The position numbers and the translations under genes were made by a program. The notes under the pieces were generated by a model. That model did not search any database and was not told the origin of the DNA. It was given only the letters and a program-made list of their open reading frames with translations. Below, in pieces: positions 1-9,979 of a DNA stretch of 64,000 nt. Positions within the stretch are counted from its first letter, which is position 1. Each line of letters opens with the position of its first letter. The stretch comes from Alloacidobacterium dinghuense (GTDB lineage: Bacteria > Acidobacteriota > Terriglobia > Terriglobales > Acidobacteriaceae), in contig NZ_CP060394.1 of the NCBI RefSeq assembly GCF_014274465.1, forward strand, positions 1,736,001 through 1,800,000. The letters run 5' to 3'.

Positions 1-1
1 C

Positions 2-451
2 ACCAATTCTGACGCCTTGGTTGTTAATAAGCTTCCCGATGGTTCCAGAGTCATTGTCGACCCCAACAACGAGACGGTTCTTGCTCTAAACGCAACAGCC
101 GGCGCGGCATGGGACGCGTGCAGCAGTCCGACGACTCTATCTAAGGTGACGGAAGATATGCGGCGTTCCTTTGACCGGACGGTCACTGAGGATCTAGCTG
201 CAGAAGCGATTCTGCGCCTGGAGGAGCAGCAACTTGTGAAAACATCCGGACTGCAACCCAATCGCAGGCAATTTATGGCAACTTTGGGTGCCGCAGCCTT
301 GCCGCTAGTCGCATCGCTGCCGTTGGTGGAACAGCGAGCATATGCGCAGAAGGCGCGGTCAGCACCCTCGACACCGCCGCCTTCGACACCACCTCCTGAC
401 AACGGGCATGGGATTCTCTGGTGGATCCTGCACTTGCTGGGTCTTGTGTAA
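2..451 (+). CDS. PqqD-domain protein with internal Tat-like segment and variable tail (5' partial)
   Basis: The reading frame is open to the window edge. The residues before the TTG at 17 (TNSDA) already align with the sister gene at 671, so the true start lies upstream. Residues up to about 80 form a PqqD/RRE-like winged-helix domain (LPDGSRVIV, NATAGAAWD, AILRLEEQQLV), a fold that in RiPP pathways binds leader peptides. Next come NRRQF and a hydrophobic stretch ending in RAYAQ, which looks like a twin-arginine signal with an AxA peptidase site, although it sits in the middle of the protein. About 34 residues follow: a PSTPPP repeat, then a hydrophobic end with WWILHLLG. The family assignment rests on motif recognition. 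Whether the tail is released as a peptide is inference. The alternative is a membrane-anchored RRE protein. Confidence 0.7.
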   Translation, partial: TNSDALVVNKLPDGSRVIVDPNNETVLALNATAGAAWDACSSPTTLSKVTEDMRRSFDRTVTEDLAAEAILRLEEQQLVKTSGLQPNRRQFMATLGAAALPLVASLPLVEQRAYAQKARSAPSTPPPSTPPPDNGHGILWWILHLLGLV

Positions 452-488
452 GCGGCTACTCGGATCGCCCAGACTTCGGCGACAAGTT

Positions 489-522
489 GCAATTTTTTGC
501 AACTTATCGCAACTCATTGCAA
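489..522. repeat. Four GCAA motifs at exact 10-bp spacing
   Basis: GCAA occurs at 489, 499, 509 and 519, each exactly one helical turn from the next, and three of the four are TTGCAA. The array lies 38 bp after the stop of the first PqqD gene and about 150 bp before the start of the second. Face-of-the-helix phasing suggests a cooperative protein-binding site or a bent segment. No binding protein is identified. Confidence 0.5.
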
Positions 523-670
523 TGAATGACTCGAATAATTGAGTTACCGAAGACTCGTAGAAAGTTACCAAGAGATTATCGATAGAAACCAGGCTGGCTC
601 GCTTACACTTCCTAAGTGAAGGAAGTGCGGAAACGACCGCATTGGTGAAATGCCAAGAAGAGAGGCCAAA

Positions 671-1090
671 ATGCACATAGAGCGAGCGAATGCAGACGGC
701 TTAGTGATAAACCAGTTGCCTGACGGCTCCAAGGTCATTACGGATCGTGCGAATGAAACGGTCTTTGCTCTGAACTCGACAGCTGGCGCAGCGTGGGATG
801 CATGCAGCACTCCGACGACACTCTCCGTGATTAGGGAAAACATGCGGCAGTCGATCGGTTCGGGGGTAAGCGAGGAATTGGCGGAAGAGGCGATTCTCCA
901 ATTGCAGAAGAACAAGCTGGTGACGGCAACAGGATCGTTCTCGCAGGCGACGCGGCGCGAGTTCCTCGCGTCCTTGACAGCCGCCGCGTTGCCGCTGGTT
1001 GTTTCGTTGACAGTGGCTGAGCAACAGGCGTTTGCCAAGAAAACACGATCTGTGCCGCGCCCCGACCCGGACCCGAAGCCGCATTCCTAA
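671..1090 (+). CDS. PqqD-domain protein with internal Tat-like segment, paralogue of the first gene
   Basis: The ATG at 671 is chosen because AGAGAGG lies five to six bases upstream; an ATG at 650 is also in frame. The product is 139 residues. Residues 1-80 repeat the PqqD-like domain of the upstream gene almost line for line (ANADGLVINQLPDGSKV, NSTAGAAWDACSTPTTL). Then come TRREF, a hydrophobic segment (LTAAALPLVVSLTV) and QQAFAKK, an AxA-type cleavage site. The tail is only 17 residues, rich in Pro and Asp (RPDPDPKPHS), and unrelated to the tail of the first copy. A conserved domain plus RR segment with a divergent end is what precursor peptides show, but this function is inferred. The protein could instead be an exported or anchored peptide-binding chaperone. 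Confidence 0.75.
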   Translation: MHIERANADGLVINQLPDGSKVITDRANETVFALNSTAGAAWDACSTPTTLSVIRENMRQSIGSGVSEELAEEAILQLQKNKLVTATGSFSQATRREFLASLTAAALPLVVSLTVAEQQAFAKKTRSVPRPDPDPKPHS

Positions 1091-1227: not shown

Positions 1228-2016
1228 ATGTCAATTACTTACAGTTTCGGTGTTTCCGCATTTGGCTGTAATATGCGTGTGGCGTCTGAGTCCCTTGACG
1301 CCTACTCGGTCCTAAAACGTTATGTTTTCCCGTCGCTGTCGAGACGAATGGATGACGCGGGTCCGGCGGATGTCTTTGTTCGCATAGTACAGGTGGCGGA
1401 TCAATTTCATTTGTCTGTGGATAATGTTGTAGTCGCGTCATCCGGGCAAGCGATCAATCTGGTGCCCGATCTCATCAGGGCATTGGACGATGCTGTGATT
1501 CCACGCCTGACCACACTGCGCGCTGTTCATGCGGGCGCGGTCTTATTGGGAGAGCGGGCCTTGTTGCTACCGGGTGCTACGCATGCGGGCAAATCGTCAC
1601 TGGTGGCAGAACTTTTGCGACGTGGTGCTACTTATTTCTCTGATGAGTATGCGTTTATTGATTCAAGAGGCTACGTGCATCCGTATCCGCGCCCACTGCT
1701 CGTGCGGAATGGCTGTCCAGAGCAACTCCCTATGCTTGCGGAAGAATACAACGCTACGGTTGGTGATGTTGCCGCACCAGTTGGATGGATTGTCTCGCTG
1801 GAATATATGCGGGAGGGTAAATGGAATGTTGCTACGGTTCCTCAAAGCGAGGCTCTGCTGAACCTCTTGCGGAATACGCCGCACGTTCTTTCGGAGATGC
1901 CGGATATGATAGGCGTCTTTCAGCGCGCGGTTGCGGGAGCCGCATGTTATGCCGGGCGGAGGAGCGAAGTGGCTGACGCGGCTGACCATGTCCTACAGTT
2001 GACTGGTGGTGTTTGA
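1228..2016 (+). CDS. HPr kinase/phosphorylase-like P-loop protein of RiPP-type neighbourhoods
   Basis: The 262-residue product has a Walker A loop GATHAGKSS preceded by VHAGAVLLGERALLLP, then FSDEYAFID and HPYPRPLLVRNG. These match the C-terminal kinase domain of HprK-like proteins. It lacks the N-terminal half of true HprK, and no HPr or EI gene is nearby. Family knowledge: HprK-like kinases in lasso-peptide clusters sit beside PqqD/RRE proteins, and some phosphorylate the precursor's C-terminal Ser. Here it follows two PqqD genes, one of whose products ends in Ser. The start is uncertain: ATG 1228 keeps an N-terminal strand (YSFGVSAFG), while ATG 1273 would give 247 residues. Neither has a strong ribosome site. 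The substrate is not known. Confidence 0.7.
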   Translation: MSITYSFGVSAFGCNMRVASESLDAYSVLKRYVFPSLSRRMDDAGPADVFVRIVQVADQFHLSVDNVVVASSGQAINLVPDLIRALDDAVIPRLTTLRAVHAGAVLLGERALLLPGATHAGKSSLVAELLRRGATYFSDEYAFIDSRGYVHPYPRPLLVRNGCPEQLPMLAEEYNATVGDVAAPVGWIVSLEYMREGKWNVATVPQSEALLNLLRNTPHVLSEMPDMIGVFQRAVAGAACYAGRRSEVADAADHVLQLTGGV

Positions 2017-2147: not shown

Positions 2148-3785
2148 ATGGCATGGCCGCAAACGTATTTATTGTTTGGGAAAGGTCTGGCCTTTTCCGC
2201 TCTTCTTGCGGCGACTCCTATATTTACCCTACTAGTCCTTCTCGGCGTTCTTCGCAGGCCATCGTGGATTGCCGGGCTCTCCGGTCTCGGTATCACTCTC
2301 GCGCTCGCGATTGGAGGATACCGCATGCCCATTACGACAGCGGTGAGTGCAGCTCTTCAGGGAGCGGCTTTCGGGCTGTTTCCCATATCGTGGATTGTTT
2401 TTTGGGCAATCGCGCTGTTTCGCGTTACCGAGGTGACGGGTAAGTTCGAAATCATTAAGCAATCAGTCAGCAGATTGACACCCGACCTTCGTCTACAAGC
2501 CCTTTTGATTGCTTTTGCGTTTGGGGCATTCCTTGAAGGTGCGGCTGGCTTCGGTACTCCCGTGGCAATTGCTGCGACGATGCTTACAGGGCTGGGTTTT
2601 TCGGCGTTCACTGCCTCGGCTCTTTGTCTACTGGCGAATACGGCACCAGTTGCGTTTGGATCTATCGCCATTCCAGTCGTGACGCTGGCGGGAACCACAG
2701 GTCTGGCGCTGGATAAACTCAGCTCCGCAGTAGGCAGCTTTTGCGCCCCAGTTTCTCTCGTCCTTCCGACTTATTTGATTGTTGCAATGTGGGGATTCCG
2801 AGGTGTTGCGGGGATCTGGTTTCCCGCCGCGGCAGCAGGTTTGTCCTTTGCCTCAGTGCAGTTCGTGGTGTCGAATTTCATCGGGCCGCAGCTAACTGAC
2901 ATTCTGGCATCGCTCACCGCCATGCTCACGCTGGTTGTGGTCCTGCGCTATTGGCACCCCACGACAGATCATGCGAGCGAATACTTGCGCAAAAGGGGGT
3001 TGCTGGAACGCAATGTTTCCGAGTACAGCATGGCCGAGGCAATCTACGCATGGTTGCCTTATGTATTGCTGGTGGTCTGCGTTCTTCTGTGGGGGTATAG
3101 ACCGATTCAGACCCTGCTGAACTCGGTGAGTGTTGCGATTCCATGGCCATTTCTACATAACGTCGTTTGGCGTATGCCGCCGATTGTTGCCCGGTCTGCG
3201 CCTTACCCTGCGATCTTCAATCTGAACTGGTTTGCTGCTTCGGGCACATCATGCATGATTGCGACCTTGCTTTCGGCGATCTGCTTGAGGATGAGCCCCG
3301 TGAAGTTTGTGCACGTGCTTTTATCAGTTGTGCGTACACTGCTCCTGCCCACCGTAACGGTCACCTCGGTGCTCGCGATGGCCTTCCTGATGAACTATTC
3401 CGGAGCGACTGCAACGCTGGGTTTGGCGTTCTCGGCCACGGGAGCGGTGTTTCCTTTCTTCAGCGCTCTTCTGGGCTGGCTTGGCGTGTTTCTGACTGGC
3501 TCCGATACCGCGGCGAATGCGTTGTTCGGGGGCTTACAAGTGATTACAGCTGGCCGTCTCGGCATGGACCCTGTTCTGCTCGCTGCCTCGAACTCTGCGG
3601 GAGGGGTGATGGGCAAAATGATTAGTCTGCAAACCATTGCGGTTGCCGCCGCTGCGACGGGGATGTCCGTCGCCGACCAATCAAAGCTCTTTCGCTTTAC
3701 GCTAAAGCACAGCCTTCTGTTGGCGAGCGTGATCGGCGGGTTGGCACTTCTCTACGTGTATGTAGTTCACCTTCGCTGGAGTTGA
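2148..3785 (+). CDS. lldP: L-lactate permease
   Basis: A 545-residue polytopic membrane protein of the LldP/GlcA lactate permease family, close to the usual ~550. It has 12-14 hydrophobic segments and the family's conserved stretches FGAFLEGAAGFGTPVAI (about residue 125), SALCLLANTAPVAFG, GSDTAANALFGGLQ and AASNSAGGVMGKMIS. It imports lactate or glycolate with protons across the inner membrane. No lactate dehydrogenase genes (lldD or lutABC) adjoin it, so substrate choice within the family is open. It is convergent with the CocE-type gene, seven bases apart, and starts 131 bases after the HPr-kinase-like gene, so co-transcription with that cluster cannot be excluded. Confidence 0.9.
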   Translation: MAWPQTYLLFGKGLAFSALLAATPIFTLLVLLGVLRRPSWIAGLSGLGITLALAIGGYRMPITTAVSAALQGAAFGLFPISWIVFWAIALFRVTEVTGKFEIIKQSVSRLTPDLRLQALLIAFAFGAFLEGAAGFGTPVAIAATMLTGLGFSAFTASALCLLANTAPVAFGSIAIPVVTLAGTTGLALDKLSSAVGSFCAPVSLVLPTYLIVAMWGFRGVAGIWFPAAAAGLSFASVQFVVSNFIGPQLTDILASLTAMLTLVVVLRYWHPTTDHASEYLRKRGLLERNVSEYSMAEAIYAWLPYVLLVVCVLLWGYRPIQTLLNSVSVAIPWPFLHNVVWRMPPIVARSAPYPAIFNLNWFAASGTSCMIATLLSAICLRMSPVKFVHVLLSVVRTLLLPTVTVTSVLAMAFLMNYSGATATLGLAFSATGAVFPFFSALLGWLGVFLTGSDTAANALFGGLQVITAGRLGMDPVLLAASNSAGGVMGKMISLQTIAVAAAATGMSVADQSKLFRFTLKHSLLLASVIGGLALLYVYVVHLRWS

Positions 3786-8530: not shown

Positions 8531-8626
8531 CCGGTTCGGATTCTTTTATTCAGGGTGCGTGAGGCGGGTTACATCGTACTCTTCATCAAATTGACCAATA
8601 ATATTTTCACGATACGAGGGATTGCT

Positions 8627-9979
8627 GTGCACGAATTGAATCGTAGGAATTTTCTCAAGGTTGCGGGAGTCGCAACGGCCGAGACGCTGATGGGAGCAAA
8701 GGTAAATATGTTGGCGCAGGCTCAAGCTGAACCGGAGAAGGCAGTTGCCACGAACGATCATATACAGATTGCGTTGATAGGCGCCGGAGGTCAGGGACAA
8801 GGGGACACCAAAACAGCAATTCAGGTTCCGGGAGTGAAGCTCGTGGCTGTTGCGGACTGCTACGATGGGAGGCTTCAACACAGCAAAGAACTGTGGGGGC
8901 AGGACATTTTTACGACCCGCGATTACGCCGAGATTCTGGCGCGCAAGGATATTGACGCAGTGATTGTTGGCACGCCAGATCATTGGCATAAGCAAGTTTC
9001 GGTCGACGCGATGAAGGCTGGAAAGGATGTCTATTGTGAGAAGCCGATGATCCATCTTTACGCGGATGGACCAGAGATGATAGAGACAGCGCATGCCACG
9101 AAACGCATCCTTCAGGTCGGAAGCCAGCGCGTGAGCTCGATCATCTATGCGAAGGCCAAAGAACTACTTGCTGCGGGCGCCATTGGACAACTGAATATGG
9201 TTACAGCGCGTTGGGACCGCAATTCATCGATGGGAGCTTGGAACTACACGGTCCCCCTGGACGCTTCAACTGAAACATGCGATTGGCCGCGTTTCTTGGG
9301 TACAGCCCCGAAAATCCCTTTCAATGCCGAACGTTTCTTTCAGTGGAGAAAGTGGAGGGATTACGGAAGCGGCGTTGCTGGCGATCTTTTCGTTCACCTC
9401 TTTAGTGGAACCCATTTCATCACAGGCACGCACGGGCCCACGCGTGCGATGGCTACAGGGGGCTTGCGTTTCTGGAAAGACGGCCGCGACGTGCCAGACG
9501 TGATGCTGGGTTTGTTTGATTACAGGGAAGGATTCAACCTGAGTCTGCACGTGAACTTCGTGGATGGTGGTGAAGAAAGCGAGGGGCTGATCTTTACCGG
9601 CTCAGAGGGAACGATGGAGATTGCCGGCAACACGGTCAGCGTAAACCGAGTTCCTCGCGAGAAGGAGCCTGGCTATACCATCGAGACGTTCACAGAAGCA
9701 ATGCAGAAACAAATCCTCGAAGAATACAAGGCAAAATACCCGCCTGTTCATCCCTCAGGGGCGCCTTCAATGGGTTACGAAAAGTATGTGGCGCCACATG
9801 GATACAGTGACAGTTACGATCATTTCAAGAACTTCTTCAACGCCGTCCGCACGCGGCAACCTGTGGTCGAAGATGCTGTATTTGGGTACCGTGCAGCTGG
9901 AGCTGCGCTTCTAAGCAATCTCAGTATGGAGCGCGGCGCCGTGGTGCAGTGGAATCCGGATACGATAAAGCTTGCGTGA
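8627..9979 (+). CDS. Tat-exported Gfo/Idh/MocA family oxidoreductase
   Basis: I set the start at GTG 8627, with GAGGG six bases upstream (450 residues); a longer frame from 8555 would bury the signal. The N-terminus reads HELNRRNFLKVAGVA, a good twin-arginine motif, then an Ala-rich stretch. The Rossmann motif IALIGAGGQGQGDTK is near residue 50 and the catalytic EKPMIH near residue 135, preceded by GTPDHWHKQ. The C-terminal domain has YGSGVAGDLFVHLFSGTHF. It is related to but clearly distinct from the 5840-7012 enzyme, so the window has two periplasmic oxidoreductases of this family around one FG-GAP gene. The substrate is unknown, probably a sugar or sugar acid. Confidence 0.88.
   Translation: MHELNRRNFLKVAGVATAETLMGAKVNMLAQAQAEPEKAVATNDHIQIALIGAGGQGQGDTKTAIQVPGVKLVAVADCYDGRLQHSKELWGQDIFTTRDYAEILARKDIDAVIVGTPDHWHKQVSVDAMKAGKDVYCEKPMIHLYADGPEMIETAHATKRILQVGSQRVSSIIYAKAKELLAAGAIGQLNMVTARWDRNSSMGAWNYTVPLDASTETCDWPRFLGTAPKIPFNAERFFQWRKWRDYGSGVAGDLFVHLFSGTHFITGTHGPTRAMATGGLRFWKDGRDVPDVMLGLFDYREGFNLSLHVNFVDGGEESEGLIFTGSEGTMEIAGNTVSVNRVPREKEPGYTIETFTEAMQKQILEEYKAKYPPVHPSGAPSMGYEKYVAPHGYSDSYDHFKNFFNAVRTRQPVVEDAVFGYRAAGAALLSNLSMERGAVVQWNPDTIKLA

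Follow-up and report, generated by a model that had tools for sequence, protein, structure and literature searches.

The window analysed in this study is a stretch of 64,000 nucleotides from Alloacidobacterium dinghuense (G000:C1:1736001-1800000, part of a 6.27-Mb single-contig genome), and two genes for precursor-like proteins at its start are the subject of this work. Each product joins a PqqD-like domain, of the kind called RiPP (ribosomally synthesized and post-translationally modified peptide) recognition element (RRE), to an internal segment that resembles a twin-arginine translocation (Tat) signal and to a short tail. Precursor-like protein 1 (P0001, 154 amino acids) is encoded at window positions 1..451 on the forward strand, with its ATG at genome position C1:1735987, 14 bp upstream of the window and preceded by an AGGAG (read by eye), and its stop at 451. 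The PqqD/RRE domain covers residues 1-92. The Tat-like signal follows at 263..346, beginning with an arginine pair at 263-268 (residues 93-94), continuing with a hydrophobic stretch and closing with EQRAYA, whose A-x-A ends at 346 (residue 120). The remaining 34 residues, QKARSAPST...ILWWILHLLGLV, form the tail (347..448) and include Ser125 at 359-361, which is invariant in the type A alignment described below.

Precursor-like protein 2 (P0002, 139 amino acids; 671..1090, forward strand) has the same layout. Its best start is 671 rather than 650, with GAGAGG in front (read by eye). The PqqD/RRE domain spans residues 1-94, and the Tat-like signal (953..1036) runs from RR at 953-958 (residues 95-96) through a hydrophobic stretch to EQQAFA, in which AFA ends at residue 122. 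The tail of 17 residues, KKTRSVPRPDPDPKPHS, lies at 1037..1087, with the invariant Ser at 1049-1051. Downstream on the same strand, 1228..2016 encodes a HprK-like kinase of 262 amino acids with the P-loop GATHAGKS at 1573-1596, His101 at 1528-1530 and the motif SDE at 1639-1647. A scan for promoters and terminators of this window operon gave no signal above that of shuffled sequences.

The genome holds a third paralogue (P0003, L006:9550-10017), 464 kb from the window genes. All three copies follow one plan. The PqqD-like domain (92-94 residues) leads into [N/T/S]-RR-x-F and a hydrophobic stretch, and the tail comes after a closing E-Q-x-[AG]-[YF]-A. An earlier note on this DNA had described the PqqD-like domain, the RR-x-F hydrophobic segment and the A[YF]A site in the two window products, and this description holds, the arginine pair being too constant among relatives (see below) to be due to chance. 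The note also considered the two ends to differ entirely. The lengths of 34 and 17 residues stand, but the complete difference does not: both tails have a Ser five residues after A-x-A, and 7 of the 17 aligned tail residues are identical, compared with 54/92 in the domain and 18/28 in the signal. The window tails are rich in Pro and lack Cys (the three tails of the genome have 0, 0 and 1 Cys). The closest relative of P0001, with 65% identity, is found in the same genus (L008 of genome G003), and the hydrophobic end of its tail (IQWLLGLLGL) agrees in part with the hydrophobic ILWWILHLLGLV that closes P0001.

The Pfam PqqD model (PF05402, cut-off 23.4 bits) is reached by P0001 (28.5 bits) and P0003 (27.6 bits), while P0002 falls just below it (21.7 bits). 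In an AlphaFold2 model of P0001, blocks of residues 1-90 have predicted local distance difference test (pLDDT) values of 87-98, and the tail block has values of 60-70. The best match of this model in the PDB is the lasso peptide RRE TbiB1 (5v1v, E 1.5e-4), and the lasso B1 protein 6jx3 and the PqqD structure 5sxy were also matched. As modelled, the domain of P0001 has the winged-helix RRE fold. The model of a protein from the second branch of the family, described next, likewise has TbiB1 as its first match (E 2.8e-3).

Two branches were distinguished, type A, which includes P0001, and type B. In the class, 19 of 399 genomes match a profile of three proteins, and in the taxonomic family 31 of 398 match a 27-member type A profile; some type B matches or weak PqqD-only ones are counted in each case. 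Named genome contigs yielded 16 loci in one scan, and all of these are acidobacterial. Type B is widespread. Among 396 genomes in the phylum, its profile matches 130 at E <= 0.001, a number that includes many PqqD-only matches, and 40 at E <= 1e-18. A plasmid search with P0001 as the query gave no match. One further member is located on a plasmid of Gemmatirosa kalamazoonensis (Gemmatimonadota), with a kinase and a nucleotidyltransferase nearby. Between this precursor and the nucleotidyltransferase lies an open reading frame (ORF; L168:6590-7513) whose product resembles DoxX/MauE-like membrane proteins, seems to include a thioredoxin-like part and could serve disulfide formation. PqqD-family proteins on 13 haloarchaeal plasmids (Halobacterium H2-H14) match only the domain part of a type B precursor, over at most 63% of the query and without the tail.

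The comparisons below use 91 members from Acidobacteriota (31 type A, 60 type B), obtained from 95 distinct profile-matched frames after four were dropped: one at L047, interrupted by unread bases, and those of L076, L077 and one frame of L072, which are PqqD-only and have no tail or RR. Where two arginine pairs were present, the one after S, T, N or G was taken. Cut sites were assigned by a simple rule, which places some of them off by a few residues. The tail statistics are based on 89 members, excluding L095, with a tail of two residues, and one copy at L045, in which the rule misplaced the cut. Neighbouring genes were counted at 67 distinct loci (25 type A, 42 type B), with L044 and L156, which are one locus, counted once. 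Precursor genes occur in tandem at some of these, with two in the window, two at L045 and four at L035. At the last of these (L035:5968-8468) the four genes are followed by one kinase, and two of the products resemble each other both in the domain (80% identity) and in their short, two-Cys tails.

The earlier note had made its proposal depend on homologues that keep the RR segment, and they do so throughout. An arginine pair precedes the hydrophobic segment in 91/91 members. It follows S or T in 80/91, and a hydrophobic residue or Ala is present at +3 in 91/91 and at +4 in 90/91. The motif is similar to SRRxFLK, the Tat consensus. There, even Lys in place of Arg is described as poorly tolerated, and Sec signals have no such constraint (PMC7317946). 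An A-x-A is found at RR+25 in 24/31 type A members and is shifted in 3 others. A small-x-Ala site, a loosely defined pattern, is present in 59/60 type B members. TatC is present in the window genome.

The tails vary more than the part of the protein that precedes them, as the earlier note had anticipated. The median pairwise identity in type A (435 pairs) is 0.54 for the domain, 0.61 for the signal and 0.21 for the tail, with 0.16 for shuffled tails. The corresponding medians in type B (450 of 1711 pairs) are 0.39, 0.45 and 0.27, with 0.23 if shuffled. Tail identity is lower than domain identity in 433/435 type A and 406/450 type B pairs. In addition, the non-synonymous divergence (pN) of the tail exceeds that of the domain in 11/11 close pairs with domain identities of 72-99% (medians 0.373 and 0.066). 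The synonymous divergence (pS) is also higher in the tail in these 11 pairs (medians 0.738 and 0.503 in the domain), so part of the contrast in pN reflects rate or alignment.

Two features are retained in the tails despite this variability. One is the Ser at the fifth tail position, five residues after A-x-A, which is invariant in the 27-sequence type A alignment (A2). In type B, a Ser or Thr is found within the first five tail residues in 57/59 members, where composition alone would give about 65%. The other is Cys. At least four Cys are present in 49/59 type B tails and exactly six in 31/59, and the number of Cys is even in 51/53 of the type B tails that have any. For example, the type B tail of L080 carries C-x6-C-x5-CC-x3-C-x4-C and is modelled with pLDDT 92-94 over residues 141-161. 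This model superposes on spider inhibitor cystine knot (ICK) structures (5fzv, 0.4 Å over 25 residues; 1hvw, 0.8 Å over 25), for which the Foldseek E-values are above 1, the stretch being short, and the Pfam matches are below cut-off. This model and the Cys counts suggest that the variable part is often a mini-protein of disulfide type, which would belong outside the cytoplasm. Two precursors of genome G708 (L186:7109-7801 and L185:2593-3420) have tails rich in Thr, Gly and Pro, one of them consisting of many PGTTTAD-like and GGGDT repeats.

Genes for a HprK-like kinase and for a nucleotidyltransferase resembling NTP_transf_5 are the recurrent neighbours of the family. The kinase is present at 53 of the 67 loci, the nucleotidyltransferase at 50, both at 43 and either at 60. 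In type A the kinase usually follows the precursor on the same strand within 400 nucleotides (23/25 loci), and the nucleotidyltransferase gene lies upstream in divergent orientation, no more than 800 nucleotides away (18/25). The usual order in type B is kinase, precursor, nucleotidyltransferase, with the kinase at most 400 nucleotides upstream at 21/42 loci and the nucleotidyltransferase at most 800 nucleotides downstream at 24/42. Eighteen type B triads leave at most 131 nucleotides between precursor and kinase; between precursor and nucleotidyltransferase there are at most 121 nucleotides in 17 of them and 388 in one. The association also holds between whole genomes. Among 396 genomes, 42 have precursor and kinase, none has the precursor only, three have the kinase only and 351 have neither (Fisher 1.5e-53; the members and genomes are related and p-values here are only indicative). 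Precursor genomes were those with E <= 1e-18, a threshold set after the list had been seen, together with G000 and G230, two type A genomes that were included manually. With two doubtful precursors included (that of G730, a gene cut by a contig end, and that of G1037), the kinase is found in 42 of 44 precursor genomes. One kinase is present in 39 of the 45 kinase genomes. In G872, G926 and G1034 several precursors are on contigs other than that of the single kinase, as expected if one tailoring enzyme serves several substrates.

In the 25 kinases of the family that were compared, His101, Gly121, Lys122, Asp139 and Glu140 do not vary. The window kinase matches NCBIfam HprK_rel_A with E 1.1e-12, but with 47.6 bits against a cut-off of 200. 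The NTP_transf_5 model (PF14907, cut-off 31.2 bits) is reached by all three of the relatives' partners that were scanned (89.6-196 bits). In the window genome the nucleotidyltransferase is at C1:1510558-1511721, approximately 225 kb away, with an intact frame and recognised as a homologue at E 3e-95, and neither a precursor nor a kinase is alongside it. This genome also has a second, divergent pair of genes, for a HprK-like kinase (E 1e-7 to the kinase profile) and an NTP_transf_5-like protein (E 4e-19), at C1:4035695-4037005 (L172:7138-9537), and two profiles gave no PqqD match in the surrounding 16 kb. At two type A loci (L037:6479-8572 and L047:6419-8509) a long ORF seems, read by eye, to join a glycosyltransferase-like part to a HprK-like kinase.

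The maturation genes that the earlier note had named were of another kind. No radical S-adenosylmethionine (SAM), asparagine-synthetase-like or transglutaminase-like gene was recognised by eye among the ORFs upstream of the window, and none is recurrent near the family loci. The 25 commonest Pfam families in the 78 type A and 94 type B neighbours scanned (picked from 88 and 177 candidates) do not include an asparagine-synthetase-like cyclase, a result of no search aimed at cyclases; only these 25 families are shown by the neighbour scans, from which families with one or two matches could escape. The survey of recurrent neighbours had a lower limit of 75 amino acids per ORF. Transporters, also named in the note, occur at few loci: three of the 78 type A neighbours are of the major facilitator superfamily and two are ATP-binding cassette (ABC) ATPases, and an ABC ATPase cluster is near 3/18 loci. 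The prediction of maturation-type genes nearby was borne out at 60/67 loci, with a kinase and a nucleotidyltransferase in place of the partners expected. The lasso B2 leader peptidase (PF13471) occurs in 10/40 precursor genomes, in each case away from the precursor loci, and is absent from the window genome. A lasso peptide system was considered as a candidate and rejected because PF13471 is absent from the precursor loci. A separate precursor gene was also rejected, since there is little room in the 18 type B triads and no short ORF (20-74 amino acids) within 2.5 kb recurs in more than two loci, a comparison from which a hypervariable or distant precursor could escape.

On balance, the window genes are probably precursors of exported peptides, with the RRE and its substrate joined in cis in one chain and with tailoring by the kinase and the nucleotidyltransferase. 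The earlier note had proposed an RRE fused to its own substrate with an internal export signal and a variable peptide; this proposal gains from the tail variability, the constant RR and the neighbouring genes, and has been changed with respect to the partners. In the cytoplasm, the RRE part would recruit the kinase (window 1228-2016) and, in the window genome, the nucleotidyltransferase located about 225 kb away. These enzymes would probably phosphorylate, and perhaps further decorate by nucleotidyl or sugar transfer, a Ser or Thr near the start of the tail, the invariant Ser being the candidate site in type A. The internal twin-arginine signal may then direct export of the tail by the Tat (or Sec) translocon while the RRE stays on the cytoplasmic side, and signal peptidase I would cut after A-x-A, by which the peptide would be freed. 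The genes would duplicate and their tails diversify around a constant domain, a constant signal and a usually single kinase. The peptides could function in antagonism, in signalling or at the surface with polysaccharide. More tentatively, and with our judgement leaning slightly to doubt, the family could represent a new class of ribosomal peptide. In this class the RRE, the Tat signal and a hypervariable mini-protein (knottin-like or Pro-rich) would be combined in one self-chaperoned chain, which would be (glyco-)phosphorylated near its new N-terminus by a kinase/nucleotidyltransferase pair shareable among precursors. Its export would involve neither a dedicated transporter nor a leader peptidase.

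Several observations weigh against the reading as tailored, exported precursors. Neither partner gene is present at 7/67 loci, some of them near contig ends, and the third copy of the window genome is one of these. This copy also has GYA in place of A-x-A and is among the 4/31 type A members in which A-x-A is missing from its expected place. No kinase was found at E 1e-20 in G1037, which has a precursor-like gene, and two or three kinases are present in 6/45 kinase genomes. With respect to export, P0001 scores below the cut-offs of the TAT models (TIGR01409, 13.6 against 16.7; PF10518, 14.4 against 22.7), and P0002 has no match to the TAT models of Pfam and NCBIfam. In the tails, the position of the Ser or Thr in type B is not fixed and small residues are usual near a cut site anyway, and the number of Cys is even in only 9/13 of the Cys-bearing type A tails. 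L191, next to a kinase, has a tail of two residues. A longer tail beyond its stop was considered and rejected, as the following sequence is unlike a family tail, and L191 stays tail-less. At the other extreme, three members have long tails that are small proteins (125 residues in L020, 163 in L073 and 84 in L075). Lastly, the kinases and PqqD parts score below the cut-offs of the HPr-rel-A families, discussed below. TIGR04352 is the best NCBIfam match of the four kinases scanned, at 42-60 bits (cut-off 200), and TIGR04353 matches both type B proteins scanned, at 17.6 and 19.5 bits (cut-off 35).

Some of these points would fit other explanations. The proteins could be membrane-anchored RRE or docking proteins, with the N-terminus inside and the C-terminus outside. 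In that case the hydrophobic segment would serve only for anchoring, the tail would be filler and the enzymes would act on another, unlinked substrate drawn to the membrane. The tail-less member and the poorly modelled tail of P0001 are consistent with this, and discrete RREs are described as scaffolds for a separate precursor in the available part of PMC7470986. However, it is hard to explain for filler that type B tails keep an even number of Cys while the rest changes, and an RR in every member compared exceeds the needs of an anchor. The small gaps of the type B triads and the lack of a recurrent short ORF also argue against a substrate encoded nearby, and we regard this explanation as unlikely. 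A second alternative is a polysaccharide or cell-surface module, in which a phospho-sugar link would be made on an exported small protein that anchors or caps polysaccharide. Several type B loci lie, read by eye, inside exopolysaccharide-type clusters, and Glycos_transf_4 is found in 7/94 type B neighbours, which is a further point against a free peptide. The ORFs of L037 and L047 that join glycosyltransferase-like and kinase parts, and the hexose that PsmN is described to install on phospho-Ser in the portion of PMC9266682 available, would also suit such a module. Against this, the 25 commonest families in the 78 type A neighbours include no polysaccharide family, none was recognised beside the window genes, and a structural anchor would not usually have hypervariable tails. 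This explanation is considered improbable, though a surface or glycan role is a serious competitor.

The family could also be a degenerating remnant of a lasso or HPr-rel-A system after loss of the core-forming enzymes, as its closest fold matches are lasso RREs and a kinase with a nucleotidyltransferase is known from lasso clusters in the published portions referred to below. Decay is not what the sequences resemble: the frames are open, the pN of the domain is far below its pS (medians 0.066 and 0.503, 11 pairs), the motifs are kept, partners co-occur across the phylum and no lasso peptidase is found at the precursor loci of 40 genomes. A remnant is very improbable.

Other genes of the window stand apart from this system. 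The upstream neighbour of the precursor genes, on the other strand, resembles a reductase of the short-chain dehydrogenase/reductase type (read by eye), and no partner gene was recognised on that side. Directly 3' of the kinase, at 2148-3785, is a lactate permease gene (PF02652, E 2.9e-143), a family that is not among the recurrent neighbours. An oxidoreductase-like ORF at 8555-9979 (read by eye) has a Tat-type motif, RRNFLK, near its N-terminus and is a conventional Tat candidate.

If the proposed reading is correct, three genes, for a precursor-RRE fusion, a kinase and a nucleotidyltransferase, would provide a route to exported disulfide- or Pro-rich peptides with recognition and export built in. 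A major soil phylum would gain a repertoire of peptides, and kinase/nucleotidyltransferase pairs would have a role outside lasso clusters. Knottin-like mini-proteins would be made behind an RRE, which could be of use as a plug-in leader in peptide engineering.

Several known systems can be compared with the family. The earlier note knew of no described system with this order, and no description of a PqqD-Tat-peptide fusion was found in the open-access literature searched, most subscription papers being outside its scope. In the consulted section of the RRE-Finder paper, the RRE fusions named are to enzymes and not to precursors (PMC7470986). Internal or late Tat signals, such as those of actinobacterial Rieske proteins and of the SCO1860 family with its long n-region, likewise have the motif away from the extreme N-terminus. 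They differ in having preceding transmembrane helices or a long n-region, and the sections of these papers that were available do not mention an RRE ahead of a short tail (PMC7317946, PMC10924467). Knottin (ICK) peptides can be compared with the six-Cys tail of L080 through the superposition of its model, for which the Foldseek and Pfam values are given above, and the tails of P0001 and P0002 are not knottins. Actifensin and actinodefensins are, in the excerpt available, likewise bacterial disulfide-rich peptides with a leader, a variable mature peptide and multi-copy genes, whereas their leader has 32 amino acids with a GA site of ABC-transporter type and, in that excerpt, no fused RRE (PMC6989792). 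The NCBIfam model of actinodefensin-associated protein B matches P0002 only at E 0.062.

The HPr-rel-A system, with the kinase TIGR04352 and the PqqD chaperone TIGR04353, also combines a PqqD-family protein with a HprK-related kinase. However, TIGR04353 spans 74 positions, without room for a signal and a tail, and it has no match in P0001-P0003. The phrase "HprK-related kinase" was not found in the open-access literature searched. The lasso clusters with PadeK, PsmK or BsfK and with PsmN or BsfN, as far as the available text of their descriptions extends, have in common with the family an RRE fold closest to lasso B1, a HprK-like kinase and a nucleotidyltransferase. In these systems BsfK phosphorylates core Ser3 of the lasso precursor BsfA, a reaction accelerated by its RRE, PsmK also phosphorylates, and PsmN is held responsible for the hexose on phospho-Ser (PMC10368454, PMC9266682). 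The modified Ser of BsfA is near the core start, comparable to the candidate type A Ser near the tail start. BsfK is described, in the part consulted, as requiring a His, the P-loop Gly, Lys and Ser and an Asp pair (PMC10368454); the kinases of the family have a comparable His and P-loop motif, but Asp-Glu where BsfK has Asp-Asp. The family differs from lasso clusters in that its loci have no B2 peptidase and no cyclase or transporter among their recurrent neighbours, and in that the RRE is fused to the candidate substrate, the export signal is inside the precursor and the tails are rich in Cys or Pro. Compared with these systems, the family would be a case of kinase tailoring guided by an RRE, and there is a fair chance that it forms a class by itself.
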